Assembly: GCF_014647915.1 (NCBI RefSeq)
Contig: NZ_BMQC01000005.1
Location: 124,001-188,000 of the forward strand
DNA: 64,000 bases
Source: Pilimelia terevasa
Lineage (GTDB): Bacteria; Actinomycetota; Actinomycetes; Mycobacteriales; Micromonosporaceae
Direction: 5' to 3'
In this document: positions 42,824-48,635 of the stretch, piece after piece
Layout of the letters: each line of letters opens with the position of its first letter
Numbering within the stretch: the stretch's first letter is position 1
Made by a program: the position numbers and the translations under genes
The notes under the pieces: generated by a model
Databases searched by the model: none
The model's input: only the letters and a program-made list of their open reading frames with translations
Told to the model about the DNA's origin: nothing

Positions 42824-43408
42824 CTACCTCCCGGCCCGTCGCTCGTTGCTTCTGGTGATGTCCTGTTTATCGGAACGTGACCCCGTCCGGGCGGCCACCG
42901 GATCGGTGAGCGGACTGGGCAGCTCGACCTTGCGACCGTTCGGCAGCGTGATGACGGCCGGCTGGCCGTCGTAGGTCATCCCCAGCCGCTCCGCGGCCCG
43001 GTACAGGGAGTTCGGCGCCTCGGCGTCCTCGATCTTCTTGCGCAGCTCCGCCTCCTCCTGGTCCAGGGCGGCGTGCTGCTGCTGGAGGGTCTGGAGCTTG
43101 AAGGCGTTCTCCATCACGGTCGTGTTGACCACGAGGATGCCCAGCACCCCGCCGACGACCACGAGCAGCAGCAGCGCGACGAACGGCGCGCGCGGGACCG
43201 CCACCGGTGCCGGCGGCGCCACGGTCAGCCACGACGCGGCGCGCCGCCGCGGCGCGGCGGGCTGCGCGGCGAGCGCGGTGGCCCCGTCGACCGGCGGCGC
43301 CGGCCGCCCGGCCCGCGCCTGGTCGGTGTGGTGCGCCGCGGTCCGACCCCCGGACCGCGGTGCACCGGTGCGGCGCCGTGCGGCCCCGCCCCCCGGTACG
43401 GCGTTCAT
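42824..43408 (-). CDS. FtsL-like septum formation protein
   Basis: A 194-residue bitopic protein. An approximately 75-residue basic, disordered head is followed by one membrane helix ([20 protein letters not shown]), then a coiled-coil ([31 protein letters not shown]) and a short tail with [11 protein letters not shown]. Position between rsmH and ftsI and this topology identify the FtsL/DivIC class. Sequence conservation of this family is low, so assignment rests on topology and position. The ATG overlaps the rsmH stop (ATGA) and has GGGAGG upstream. Confidence 0.85.
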
Positions 43409-44523
43409 GTCGCCTCCCCTGTCTCGTCCCCTGTCCCCCACGCCCCCGGGGGCGGTGTCCGCCGCTGGCCGGACCGTTCGCGGACGGTCCCCCCGGTGCG
43501 GCGGTACGGACGCCTCGCGGCGCCCCGGTCGGCCGTGGCAGCGGCCTGTGTGTCGAACGCGGCGATCCGCTCCGCGGCGCGCAGCCGGACCGACTGCGCG
43601 CGCGGGTTCGCCGCCACCTCCTGCTCCGAGGCCAGCTCGGCCCCCCGGGTCAGCAGCCGGAACGTCGGCCCCATGCCCGGCAGCTCCACCGGCAGCTCCA
43701 CCGGCGCGCTGCTGCGCACCCGCGGCGCCAGGACCTGTTTGGTGAGCCGGTCCTCCAGCGAGTGGTAGGACAGGACCACCAGGCGGCCGCCCGGCGCCAG
43801 CGCGTCCAGCGCCGCCGGCAGCGCCGCCTCCAGCGCCGCCAGCTCCTGGTTGACCTCCATGCGCAGGGCCTGGAAGGTCCGCTTGGCCGGGTGTCCCCCC
43901 GTCCGCCGGGCCGCCGCCGGGATCGCGTCCCGGACGAGGTCGGCCAGGCGGGCCGAGCTGACCAGCCGCCCGCGGGACCGTTCCCGGCCGATGGCCGAGA
44001 CGATCCGCGGAGCGAACTTCTCCTCCCCGTACACCCGCAAAACCCGGATCAGGTCCTTTTCGGAGTATTCGTTGAGGATCTCCTCGGCGGTGACGCCCGT
44101 GGACTGGTCCATCCGCATGTCCAGCGGCGCGTCCTGGGCGTACGCGAAGCCCCGGTCGGCCGCGTCGAGCTGGAGCGAGGAGACGCCCAGGTCGAACAGC
44201 ACGGAGTCGGCGTGCGGCAGGCCCAGCCCGGCCAGCGCCCCGGGAAGCCCGTCGTAGACGGTGTGCACGAGGCGCACGCGGTCACCGAAGGGCGCCAGGC
44301 GCGCCCGGGAGTGGGCCAGCGCCTCGGTGTCGCGGTCGAGGCCGACGACGACGACGTCCGGGTCCGCCCGCAGGACGGCCTCGGCGTGCCCGCCCAGGCC
44401 GACCGTGGCGTCCACGTGCACCGGCGTCCGCCCGGCGCCGGCCGCGGCCCGCAGCGCGGGGGTGAGCAGCGCCAGGCACCGCTCCAGGAGAACCGGCACG
44501 TGCGTGCCGCGCAGCTCCCCCAT
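43405..44523 (-). CDS. rsmH: 16S rRNA (cytosine1402-N4)-methyltransferase RsmH
   Basis: A 372-residue SAM methyltransferase. Starts [19 protein letters not shown], then [15 protein letters not shown] (SAM site), [67 protein letters not shown] and [12 protein letters not shown]. It modifies the decoding-site C1402 of 16S rRNA. It follows mraZ after a 206-base gap with an unusual inverted repeat; the ATG has GAGGGGG before it. Confidence 0.96.
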
Positions 44524-44729: not shown

Positions 44730-45161
44730 CTACAGCCCGCCGGGCAGGACCCCCTCCCCGATCTCGGCGAAGTCGTCCTCGCTCGCGTCGAGGTAGGACT
44801 CCCACGCCGCCGCGTCCCAGATCTCGACCCGGCTGCTCGCCCCGATCACCGCGAGCTCCCGGGTCAGGCCCGCGTACTGGCGCAGGTGCGCCGGCAGCGT
44901 GACCCGCCCCTGCTTGTCGGGGGTCTCGTCGTGCGCGCTGGCGAAGAAGACCCGGCTGTACGCGCGGGCCGCCTTGTGGGTCATCGGCTGCGCCTGGAGC
45001 TGGGTGGCGATCCGCTGGAACTCGGCGACGGGGAACACGTAGAGACAGCGCTCCTGCCCTTTGGTGATCACGACGCCTCCCGCCAGCCCGTCCCGGAACT
45101 TCGCCGGCAGGATCAGCCGGCTCTTGTCGTCCAGGCGCGGGGTGTGCGTGCCGAGGAACAT
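44730..45161 (-). CDS. mraZ: Transcriptional regulator MraZ
   Basis: A 143-residue protein made of two AbrB-like MraZ repeats, each with a DxxGR/SRxxLP core: [14 protein letters not shown] (about 10-25) and [14 protein letters not shown] (about 85-100). MraZ forms a ring that binds tandem GTGGG-type repeats and controls its own dcw operon. ATG 45161 begins [12 protein letters not shown] as in the family; GGGGGG lies 8 bases upstream. The predicted operators lie about 315-340 bases upstream (45476-45501), giving a long leader of about 310 nt. Confidence 0.95.
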
Positions 45162-45475
45162 CGGCGGCACCCCCCTCGCTCCGGCGCCTGCCGCGCCGTG
45201 CCGGCCGGGACGGGCCACACAGCGCCGCACGCGCTGACGCAGTCCGGCTGCGGACCCCCACGGCCGGGTGCGCCCTACGAGCTCCCCCACGGTGGCCGAC
45301 GGTCACCGACCCCCACCGCGTCTCGCGCGCCGCGGCCCGCGTCCCGCACCTGGGCTGCGCGCCCGTCCGGGACCCGGAGTCCTGCACCCGTCTGGGCCGG
45401 AGCCCCTACCCCGCAGGACCGCATCCTGCGCTCGGCAGGACCGGAATCGGTGGCTACCCCCAGCGCACCAACGCC
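45162..45475 (-). other. Long 5' leader of mraZ
   Basis: The predicted mraZ transcript has about 310 nt before the ATG. It contains three GTGGGGG motifs on the minus strand (45255-45261, 45284-45290, 45310-45316) spaced 29 and 26 bases, not the 10-bp register of the true boxes. No supported gene or terminator was found here. Confidence 0.4.
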
Positions 45476-45501
45476 CCCCACTCTACTCCACTTCACTCCA
45501 C
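45476..45501 (-). promoter_or_regulatory. MraZ box array facing mraZ
   Basis: On the minus strand GTGGAG (45496-45501), GTGGAG (45486-45491) and GTGGGG (45476-45481) repeat with exact 10-bp periodicity. Three tandem repeats at one helical turn is the MraZ operator layout known from other bacteria. Confidence 0.75.
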
Positions 45502-45507
45502 CCGCAA
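45480..45507 (-). promoter_or_regulatory. mraZ (dcw) promoter overlapped by MraZ boxes
   Basis: Minus-strand TTGCGG (45502-45507), a 16-base spacer and TAGAGT (45480-45485) form a credible -35/-10 pair. Two MraZ boxes fill the spacer and the third begins in the -10, so MraZ binding should block polymerase: autorepression. Confidence 0.6.
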
Positions 45508-45554
45508 TCGGAATCATGCGTCCGGCTGATCTGGTCGCTCCCGCAAAACCGCAG

Positions 45555-45580
45555 GTCAGGCGCGGTGGAGCGCAGTGGAG
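45555..45580 (+). promoter_or_regulatory. Second MraZ box array facing murT-gatD
   Basis: On the plus strand GTGGAG occurs at 45565-45570 and 45575-45580 with 10-bp spacing; GTCAGG at 45555-45560 is a degenerate third unit in register. This array is in opposite orientation to the mraZ array and upstream of murT. No clear -10/-35 pair for murT was found near it. Confidence 0.6.
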
Positions 45581-45776
45581 CGAGAAGTTGATCACTGCAT
45601 GTCCACAATCCGACACCGGTGCCGAAACCGACGTCCGGTCACGGACGGGCACGGTCGGGCAGGAACCACGCGGCCCCGGCGCCGCCCGAACGCCCCGCGC
45701 CACGGCCGCCCGGGGCGCGCGCGGTGGGTCGGTCGGGCCGCGGTCCGGTACCCTCGCTCGCGTGTCGGATGCGAAT

Positions 45777-47030
45777 ATGCCGCTGCGGGCGCGCGTGGCC
45801 ACCTCGGTCTCCCGGACCGCCGCGGCCCTGTCCCGGGCCGCGGGCCGCGGCGACGGCTCCGTGATCGGCGGATGGATCGGCCTGAAGATCGAACCGGAAC
45901 TGCTGCGGCACCTGGCGGTGGGCCGGCGGATCGCCCTGGTCTCCGGCACCAACGGCAAGACCACCACCACCCGGCTCAGCGCCGCCGCCGTGGCGGTCGC
46001 CGGGCGGGTGGCCACCAACTCCTACGGCGCCAACATGCCCACCGGGCACACGTCCGCCCTGGCCAAGGCCGGCACCACCCCGTACGCGGTGCTGGAGGTC
46101 GACGAGCACTACCTGCCGCAGGTCATCGGCGCCACGGACGCCGAGGTCGTGGCGCTGCTGAACCTCTCCCGCGACCAGCTCGACCGGGCGAAGGAGGTGG
46201 CGATGATGGCCCAGCTCTGGCGCCAGTGCCTGGCCGCCCACCCGGCGGTGCGGGTCATCGCCAACGCCGACGACCCCATGGTCGTGTGGGCCGCGCACGC
46301 CGCTACGGCGGTCACCTGGTTCAGCGCCGGCCAGCGCTGGACCGACGACTCGTGGGTCTGCCCGGCCTGCGGGGCGCACATCGCCCGCGAGGAGGCCGAC
46401 TCCGGCGGCCTGCCGCCGGCCGGCCCCGGCGACTGGCGGTGCACCGGGTGCGACCTGCGCCGGCCCACCCCGCAGTGGAGCGTCGAGGACGACGGGATCG
46501 TCGGTCCCGACGGCCGCTGGCACAAGGTCGCCCTCCAGCTACCCGGCCGGGTGAACCTGGGCAACGCCGCGACCGCGCTGGCCCTCGCCGACGCCTTCGA
46601 CGTGCGCCCCGAGCGCGCCGTGCCGAAGCTGGCGGAGGTCACCTCGATCGCCGGCCGGTACGCGGTGGTGGAGCGCGACGGGCGGCGGATCCGGCTGCTG
46701 CTGGCCAAGAACCCGGCGAGCTGGCTGGAGGCGTTCGACATGGCGACACCGGCGCCGACCCTGCTGTCGATCAACGCGCGCGACCCCGACGGGCTCGACA
46801 CCTCATGGCTGTTCGATGTGGACTTCGCGCCCCTGCGCGGCCGGGAGCTGCTGATCACCGGGGACCGGGCGTACGACCTCGCGGTGCGACTGACGGTGAA
46901 CGATGTGCCGTTCCGCCACGTACCTACTTTCGCCGAAGCGGTCACCGGCGTGCCGGCCGGGCCGCTGGAGGTCATCGCCAACTACACCGCATTCCAGGAC
47001 ATCCGAGCGGAGCTGGACCGTGTCCTCTGA
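45777..47030 (+). CDS. murT: MurT, ligase subunit of the lipid II isoglutaminyl synthase
   Basis: A 417-residue Mur-ligase-like protein. ATP site LVSGTNGKTTTTRL (57-64), then LEVDEHYLPQVI, LLNLSRDQLDR, a four-cysteine zinc ribbon (Cys195, 198, 222, 225), LPGRVNLGNAATALA and the C-terminal DUF1727 region (LLAKNPASWLEAFDM, DVDFAPL). With GatD it amidates the alpha-carboxyl of D-Glu in lipid II. ATG 45777 is used; an in-frame GTG at 45762 is possible. gatD overlaps its stop. It diverges from mraZ across a gap with mirrored MraZ boxes. Confidence 0.92.
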   Translation: MPLRARVATSVSRTAAALSRAAGRGDGSVIGGWIGLKIEPELLRHLAVGRRIALVSGTNGKTTTTRLSAAAVAVAGRVATNSYGANMPTGHTSALAKAGTTPYAVLEVDEHYLPQVIGATDAEVVALLNLSRDQLDRAKEVAMMAQLWRQCLAAHPAVRVIANADDPMVVWAAHAATAVTWFSAGQRWTDDSWVCPACGAHIAREEADSGGLPPAGPGDWRCTGCDLRRPTPQWSVEDDGIVGPDGRWHKVALQLPGRVNLGNAATALALADAFDVRPERAVPKLAEVTSIAGRYAVVERDGRRIRLLLAKNPASWLEAFDMATPAPTLLSINARDPDGLDTSWLFDVDFAPLRGRELLITGDRAYDLAVRLTVNDVPFRHVPTFAEAVTGVPAGPLEVIANYTAFQDIRAELDRVL

Positions 47031-47736
47031 CAGCACCCTGCGGCTGGTCTGGGTGTACCCAGACCTGCTGTCCACCTACGGCGACCGGGGCAACCTGCTG
47101 ATCCTCGCCCACCGCGCCGCCGCGCGCGGCTTCCCCGTCGAGGCCGTCCAGGTGCGCTCCGACCAGGCTCTGCCCGAGAGCGCCGACATCTACCTGCTCG
47201 GCGGCGGCGAGGACGGCCCGCAGTCGCTGGCCGCCGACCGGATGACCGCCGACGGCGGCCTGCACCGCGCCGTCGAGCGCGGCTCCGTGGTGTTCGCCGT
47301 CTGCGCCGGGTACCAGATCCTCGGCCACTCCTTCAGCGCCAGGGGGGCGAGCTGCCCCGGCCTGGGCCTGCTGGACCTGCGGTCGGACCGCGACCCGCAG
47401 CGCGCCGTCGGCGAGCTGGCCGGCACCGTCGACCGGCAGCTCGGCCTGCCGACGCTCACCGGCTTCGAGAACCACGGCGGCCGGACGGCACTGGGCCCCG
47501 GCTGCGCCCCGCTGGCCCACGTCACGGCGGGTGTCGGCAACGACGGCCGGACCGAGGGGGCCTGGCACGGCAAGGTCCTGGGCACGTACGCGCACGGCCC
47601 CGCCCTGGCCCGCAACCCGGCGCTGGCCGACCTGCTGCTGCGCTGGGCGACGGGGGCCGCGGCGCTGGACCCCGTCGACGACACCTGGCCGGAGCGGCTG
47701 CGCGGACAGCGCCTCGCCGCGGTCGGTGCCGCATGA
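47020..47736 (+). CDS. gatD: GatD, glutaminase subunit of the lipid II isoglutaminyl synthase
   Basis: A 238-residue class I glutamine amidotransferase-like (CobB/CobQ type) protein. Starts LRLVWVYPDLLSTYGDRGNLL; LLGGGEDGPQ, the catalytic Cys95 in FAVCAGYQILG, GFENHGGRT and YAHGPALARNPALADLLL with the catalytic His. It supplies ammonia to MurT. GTG 47020 lies inside the murT end (11-base overlap), so translation is coupled, as for murT-gatD elsewhere. Confidence 0.93.
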   Translation: MSSDSTLRLVWVYPDLLSTYGDRGNLLILAHRAAARGFPVEAVQVRSDQALPESADIYLLGGGEDGPQSLAADRMTADGGLHRAVERGSVVFAVCAGYQILGHSFSARGASCPGLGLLDLRSDRDPQRAVGELAGTVDRQLGLPTLTGFENHGGRTALGPGCAPLAHVTAGVGNDGRTEGAWHGKVLGTYAHGPALARNPALADLLLRWATGAAALDPVDDTWPERLRGQRLAAVGAA

Positions 47737-48635
47737 TCTCTCGGATCCGGCGGCTGGCCGCCGAAGCTGGGGGCGTGCCGGACCACGTGCGTCGCCGCGT
47801 CCTCTGCCGCCTGCTGCCGCTGCTGGCCGCCGTGGCGGCCCTCGGGGTGGCCGCCACCCAGCTCCCGCTCGGCGAGATCCGCACCGCCGTGTCCGGTCTC
47901 GGGCCCGGCGCGCCGATCGTCACGATCGTGCTCGGCGCGGCCCTGATCTCCGTCCTCGTGCCCCGCACCGCCGTCTCGATGGCCTGCGGCGCGCTGTTCG
48001 GCACGCTGGCCGGGTTCGGCTGCGCGATGGCCGCCGCGATGGCCGCAGCGGTCGGCACCTACCTGCTGGGCCGCTGGGCCGGCCGCGGCCTGCTCGGCGC
48101 GAAGCTGGGCGGCCGGATGCACCGGCTGGACGGCTGGCTGGCCCGGCAGGGCGTCCTGGCCGTCGTCGTGACCCGGCTGCTGCCGCTGTCGCCGTACGGG
48201 CTGGTCGGATACGCCTACGGCACCACCACCGTGCGCGTGCGGCACTACCTGCTGGGTACCCTCCTGGGCGCCGTGCCGTCGAGCATCTCCTACGCCACGC
48301 TCGGCGCCGCCGTGGTCTCGCCGGGCAGCCTGAGCCCCGTCGCCGCGGTACCGGCGGTGTGCGGCATGGCGATCAGCACCTTCGCGGCCTGGCACTGGCG
48401 ACGCAAGGCCCGGGCGGCCCGCCTGGCCGCCGGCCGCGCGGGTGGGCCGCCGCGCCCGACCCCCGCCGGCCGGCCCGCCGCGGCCCCCCGGAGCGCACCG
48501 GCCGGCCGCACCGCGCCGGGTACCCGCGGCACGCCGGGCAACCGCCCCGCGCCGGTGCGCGGCACCGGCCCCCGGCAGCCGCTGCGCGGCAGGGCGGCCG
48601 GCACCGCCGTCGCGCCGGCCGCCGCCGCGGCCTGA
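47733..48635 (+). CDS. TVP38/TMEM64 (DedA-like, VTT domain) membrane protein
   Basis: A 300-residue membrane protein with about six helices. The VTT domain core is visible in ISVLVPRTAVSMACGALFGTLAGFGCAMAAAMAAAVGTYLLGR and in VTRLLPLSPYGLVGYAYGTTTVRVRHYLLGTLLGAVPSSISYATLG. An Arg/Ala/Pro-rich tail follows. VTT proteins include lipid scramblases and undecaprenyl-phosphate flippases (DedA group), so a role in lipid carrier recycling beside MurT/GatD is possible but inferred. The ATG overlaps the gatD stop (ATGA). Confidence 0.85.
   Translation: MISRIRRLAAEAGGVPDHVRRRVLCRLLPLLAAVAALGVAATQLPLGEIRTAVSGLGPGAPIVTIVLGAALISVLVPRTAVSMACGALFGTLAGFGCAMAAAMAAAVGTYLLGRWAGRGLLGAKLGGRMHRLDGWLARQGVLAVVVTRLLPLSPYGLVGYAYGTTTVRVRHYLLGTLLGAVPSSISYATLGAAVVSPGSLSPVAAVPAVCGMAISTFAAWHWRRKARAARLAAGRAGGPPRPTPAGRPAAAPRSAPAGRTAPGTRGTPGNRPAPVRGTGPRQPLRGRAAGTAVAPAAAAA

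Follow-up and report, generated by a model that had tools for sequence, protein, structure and literature searches.

The region between mraZ and murT of Pilimelia terevasa carries two tandem GTGGAG arrays on opposite strands, one within the predicted mraZ promoter (O1) and one upstream of it and facing murT (O2). We propose, with a probability of roughly 0.6, that the upstream array serves the mraZ/dcw promoter as an auxiliary MraZ operator and is not an operator of murT, a reading drawn from its conservation, orientation and helical phasing among relatives. The presence and spacing of the array follow mraZ, not the divergent gene.

Two opposed arrays between mraZ and murT

In most bacteria, the dcw cluster begins with mraZ. 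In the window, by which we mean the whole 64,000-nucleotide stretch analyzed here, mraZ and rsmH lie on the minus strand and murT, gatD and a VTT/TVP38-like gene on the plus strand, with the two opposite-strand tandem arrays between mraZ and murT. This divergent order of mraZ and murT is common in Micromonosporaceae. The following features of the locus are referred to below:

43405-44523, minus strand: rsmH, with mraZ at the head of the dcw cluster
44730-45161, minus strand: mraZ, first gene of the dcw cluster, encoding MraZ of 143 aa (TIGR00242 at 131.8 bits, above cutoff; PF02381 in two stretches)
45476-45501, minus strand: O1, putative primary MraZ operator GTGGAG-TGAA-GTGGAG-TAGA-GTGGGG, read from sequence and kept in relatives
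45480-45485, minus strand: predicted mraZ -10 box TAGAGT, overlapping the third O1 box
45502-45507, minus strand: predicted mraZ -35 box TTGCGG, read from sequence and abutting the first O1 box
45551-45558, plus strand: conserved element GCAGGTCA, 6 bp before O2 box 1, containing GTCAGG
45565-45580, plus strand: O2, putative inverted auxiliary MraZ-type array GTGGAG-CGCA-GTGGAG, read from sequence and kept at about +88 from O1
45610-45615, plus strand: conserved element CCGACA, beyond O2
45749-45754, plus strand: predicted murT -10 box TACCCT, 7 nt before the GTG start at 45762
45762-47030, plus strand: murT, lipid II isoglutaminyl synthase subunit (PF08353 and PF08245; NF045635 below its cutoff)
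about 47020-47736, plus strand: gatD
47733-48635, plus strand: VTT/TVP38-like gene (VTT domain)

O1 consists of three minus-strand boxes in a 10-bp register (GTGGAG at 45496-45501, GTGGAG at 45486-45491 and GTGGGG at 45476-45481). TTGCGG and TAGAGT are separated by a 16-bp spacer, which the first two boxes take up. Of 233 deduplicated relatives, 210 have a TANNNT motif after the O1 box pair. By this promoter anatomy, which we infer from the letters, O1 would be a classical MraZ operator. At the mraZ promoters of E. coli, Burkholderia cenocepacia and Mollicutes, the MraZ operator likewise consists of GTG-containing boxes repeated in tandem every 10 bp, and both O1 and O2 have this form upstream of mraZ. 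E. coli K-12 carries a three-box promoter array, GTGGGAAATTGTGGGGCAAAGTGGGA, just before mraZ, like O1. Its 600 bp upstream of mraZ contain no inverted array such as O2, the best match being 6/10.

O2 has two plus-strand GTGGAG boxes (45565-45570 and 45575-45580). An earlier sequence-only reading of this DNA had described a second, opposite-strand GTGGAG array at 45565 and 45575, in the same 10-bp register and facing a divergent murT-gatD-TVP38 operon; the array is there, and gene calls and domains agree with the gene order. The two arrays had been put about 65 bp apart, and we measured an inner gap of 63 bp (45502-45564) and an offset of O2 from O1 of 88 bp.

Single GTGGAG hexamers are not enriched (46 in the window vs 43 expected). 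The paired form GTGGRG-N4-GTGGRG occurs 11 times in the 4.54 Mb genome, three times at this locus, and the only two genomic copies of the strict GTGGAG-N4-GTGGAG are O1 and O2. Across 18 genomes, the source genome included, GTGGAGNNAAGTGGAG gave 19 matches, each a short way upstream of mraZ; the reversed pattern, used as a control, gave none. Like auxiliary operators, the extra copies thus lie away from the promoter and are specific to the regulated gene.

Three further observations concern mraZ and its surroundings. The mraZ leader (45162-45475, minus strand) separates the ATG from the O1 array by 314 bp, compared with about 50-150 bp in nearly all relatives, apparently a lineage-specific expansion; we rejected a structured RNA as its content because it is not unusually structured (fold z -1.5). 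Between mraZ and rsmH, the expected place, lies a weak but full-length match to the mraW RNA family RF01746 (44567-44695, minus strand; 28.3 bits vs a gathering threshold of 50). One family (f18) had no mraZ match in any sampled genome (7-10 Mb), although nearly every other genome of the class sample has mraZ.

The inverted array and its gene neighbors

We drew mraZ loci from named genomes and from genomes of the family, order, class and phylum, and deduplicated them to 115 Micromonosporaceae and 118 other loci. An inverted array was counted at 11/12 or better, no more than 300 bp upstream of the mraZ array, and the chance expectation was taken from dinucleotide shuffles. Inverted arrays were present in 105 of the 115 Micromonosporaceae loci (1.2 expected) and in 50 of the 118 loci from other actinobacterial families (3.1 expected), so that more than half of the loci outside Micromonosporaceae were without one at 11/12. 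An additional array in the O1 orientation occurred at only 1 Micromonosporaceae and 6 other loci. The nearer inverted array starts at +88 in most Micromonosporaceae loci. The plus-strand repeats are thus shared across the family, as the sequence-only reading would have it, and sequence comparison indicates that the inverted array is old and conserved. Chance as the source of the arrays was rejected on their rarity in the genome, the shuffle expectation, the specificity of GTGGAGNNAAGTGGAG and the conserved position.

If the array were an operator of the divergent gene, its presence should depend on that gene. In Micromonosporaceae, an inverted array was found at 47 of 51 loci where murT is adjacent, 24 of 25 where murT lies more than 950 bp away with another gene between, and 37 of 39 where the stretch examined showed no murT. 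At many murT-distant loci the gene in between encodes an NlpC/P60 protein and lies on the mraZ strand with its 3' end toward the array; such a peptidoglycan hydrolase gene stands between mraZ and murT in L045, L094, L128 and similar loci. Inverted arrays also occur in other families where murT is not near mraZ, their neighbor there being a gene for a MoxR-type AAA ATPase (with what we take to be a DUF58 gene after it), leuS (identified by its own sequence and the leuS of the window), or DUF3040, EspG or HNH genes. At E<=1e-30, murT was undetected in 20 of 30 other-family genomes, and these include genomes that have inverted arrays at their mraZ loci (G154, G169, G176, G201 and G181, the last only 74% complete).

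Nor is the distance to murT fixed. At murT-adjacent loci the array lies 144-647 bp from murT, and its distance from O1 is 88 bp at both quartiles. A -10 box, present at O1 in 210/233, accompanied O2 in 1/123 and O3, a further upstream array described below, in 0/116, so that only O1 overlaps the mraZ promoter and the arrays were rejected as promoters of the divergent gene. murT seems to have a promoter of its own: TANNNT stands exactly 7 nt before the murT start in 26 of 34 deduplicated murT-adjacent loci, typically as CCGGTAACCTCGCTCGC-GTG, which suggests that the murT transcript is likely leaderless and starts from a conserved promoter about 170 bp beyond O2 (168 bp in the window). Arrays as a general feature of murT were rejected as well, since 11/12 was reached at only 1 of 10 remote murT loci and at 2 of 38 distant ones.

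These results bear on the proposal of the sequence-only reading that mirrored MraZ arrays couple the dcw cluster to murT-gatD, with MraZ tying lipid II amidation to dcw expression through the plus-strand array. The array and its conservation hold up, and the coupling to murT does not, as the array tracks mraZ. The array is oriented like murT, murT is divergently adjacent to mraZ in many Micromonosporaceae, and the amidation of lipid II is part of the same pathway as the dcw cluster; a literature search on MraZ together with murT gave no lead. Set against this are the retention of the array without murT, its unconserved distance from the gene, the separate predicted promoter and the murT genes located elsewhere without arrays. 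We consider control of murT-gatD through the array improbable. The target of O2 is probably not murT, and an indirect effect of O2 on murT may exist where the two are adjacent.

Helical phasing of the upstream arrays

Many relatives have a further inverted array, O3, mostly at +192 to +270 from O1; the window itself contains O1 and O2 only, with no O3 at 11/12. O3 offsets cluster near 193, 203, 214, 225, 236, 247, 256 and 267. We measured phasing at a period of 10.5 bp, using one offset per locus after strict deduplication, and the p-values assume independent loci, which these are not fully. O1-O3 phasing gave R 0.59-0.60 (n=66-84), with 0.79-0.82 within Micromonosporaceae and 0.41-0.43 outside. 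The phasing of O2 with O3 gave R 0.77-0.78 at essentially zero phase. As controls, the distance from O1 to the murT start gave 0.09-0.15, mraZ ATG to O3 0.19-0.20 and mraZ ATG to O1 0.26-0.27. At loci missing O2, the phasing of O3 was not significant (R 0.30-0.33, n=20-23).

Box choice within one array as an artefactual source of this periodicity was rejected, since it would peak at T=10; R was 0.37-0.41 at a period of 10.0 vs 0.57-0.61 at 10.5-11. Of 23 differences in spacing state between related loci, 22 amount to 8.2-12.5, 21.5 or 33 bp (the remaining one is 58), or about one, two or three helix turns, with states within 3 bp merged so that very small steps go uncounted. Such whole-turn steps within related groups are a less ancestry-dependent form of phasing evidence. 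The spacing of the arrays thus tracks the helix repeat, as that of auxiliary operators does, more weakly outside Micromonosporaceae. Because relatives keep the copies on the same helix face whatever gene lies beyond, O2 more likely aids MraZ control of mraZ than of murT.

Paired upstream inverted arrays that lie close together are often 22-23 or 33-34 bp apart (L003, L071, L073, L094, L172, L188 and others).

A possible bridging mechanism and its alternatives

Repressors of the lac, gal and ara type loop DNA between a primary operator at the promoter and distant extra operators, with spacing constrained by helical phase and an oligomeric regulator. The mraZ region shares with them an operator at the promoter, distant copies, phased spacing and an oligomeric regulator, and a primary promoter operator with nearly always inverted, phase-locked and promoterless upstream copies resembles the auxiliary operators of a bridging repressor. 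It differs from their palindromes in its tandem direct-repeat arrays, ring protein and strictly inverted extra arrays, and looping here is a prediction. MraZ has been described as an octameric toroid (PMC7761207). Several MraZ structures are present in the PDB (we found no paper for the recent ones), and together with the toroid they make bridging plausible.

In such a mechanism, MraZ would bind O1, which occupies the spacer between the predicted -35 and -10 boxes and overlaps the latter, and one or two upstream arrays in inverted orientation (O2 near +88, O3 in the range of about +192 to +270), which would be held in fixed helical phase relative to O1. Oligomeric MraZ at O1 and at the inverted arrays would touch or bridge, bending or looping the DNA and making dcw autorepression tighter and more cooperative. 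Binding of MraZ at O2 and O3, and bridging as the cause of the kept phase, are what we infer from the arrays themselves, whose specificity, orientation, conservation, promoter overlap (at O1 only) and helical phasing can be read directly. At 63 bp, the inner gap between O1 and O2 leaves little length for a free DNA loop; bent DNA or direct contact may therefore be required for bridging. A tentative model, to which we give slightly less than even odds, is that actinobacterial MraZ represses dcw by looping the DNA, its ring-shaped oligomers joining the operator at the promoter to the strictly inverted, phased arrays, one or two in number, that lie upstream.

Other accounts of the arrays have to explain the same orientation and phase. 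The upstream arrays could have a role unrelated to O1, as decoys that store MraZ or as a roadblock to transcription entering from the upstream gene; they do sit between mraZ and that gene, which often points at mraZ. Neither role, though, calls for helical phasing, a constant orientation or a constant position at +88, and we regard both as unlikely. To about the same degree we doubt that another DNA-binding protein organizes the region, with the MraZ boxes placed around it. Two conserved elements give that idea its substance, GCAGGTCA and CCGACA, which flank O2 at the same offsets in most Micromonosporaceae loci. GCAGGTCA, in many loci in the form GCACGTCA, is found at 132 of 175 loci with O2, with a gap of 6 bp to box 1 in 120 of the 132; of 294 loci, 128 have CCGACA, usually between +133 and +137. 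GTCAGG at 45555, previously taken for a degenerate third MraZ box, was rejected as such, since it belongs to GCAGGTCA. In Dietzia, MtrA binds the mraZ promoter (PMC9602371), so another regulator, a reader of GCAGGTCA or a response regulator such as MtrA, could use either element. The repeated and phased units, however, are the GTGGAG arrays, which match the operator in the mraZ promoter. Finally, the O1 and O2 boxes are mutually reverse-complementary and might form the arms of an RNA hairpin or DNA cruciform instead of protein sites. This is very improbable: the spacers are unpaired (O2 mostly CGGA or CGAA), the loop would be 63 nt, multiple phased copies would go unexplained, and the predicted mraZ promoter starts downstream of O2, which would place O2 outside the mraZ transcript.

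The auxiliary-operator reading also differs from what is known of divergent regions and of MraZ. As in shared operators of divergent gene pairs, two divergent units, mraZ and murT, flank the region, but here the presence and spacing of the array go with mraZ. The tandem repeats described in two papers lie at the mraZ promoter, in promoter-proximal position only (PMC7761207, PMC8475190), and in M. genitalium the motif occurs once per genome and mraZ acts only in cis (PMC8475190, PMC7761207). A literature search that missed most subscription papers turned up neither inverted or phased MraZ arrays nor looping dcw autoregulation.

An array that faces a neighboring operon need not regulate that operon, which corrects the inference from which this analysis set out. 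The conserved inverted, phase-locked arrays suggest that an MraZ oligomer may bridge separate sites, and if this is true, a looping autoregulatory switch would stand at the head of the division gene cluster.
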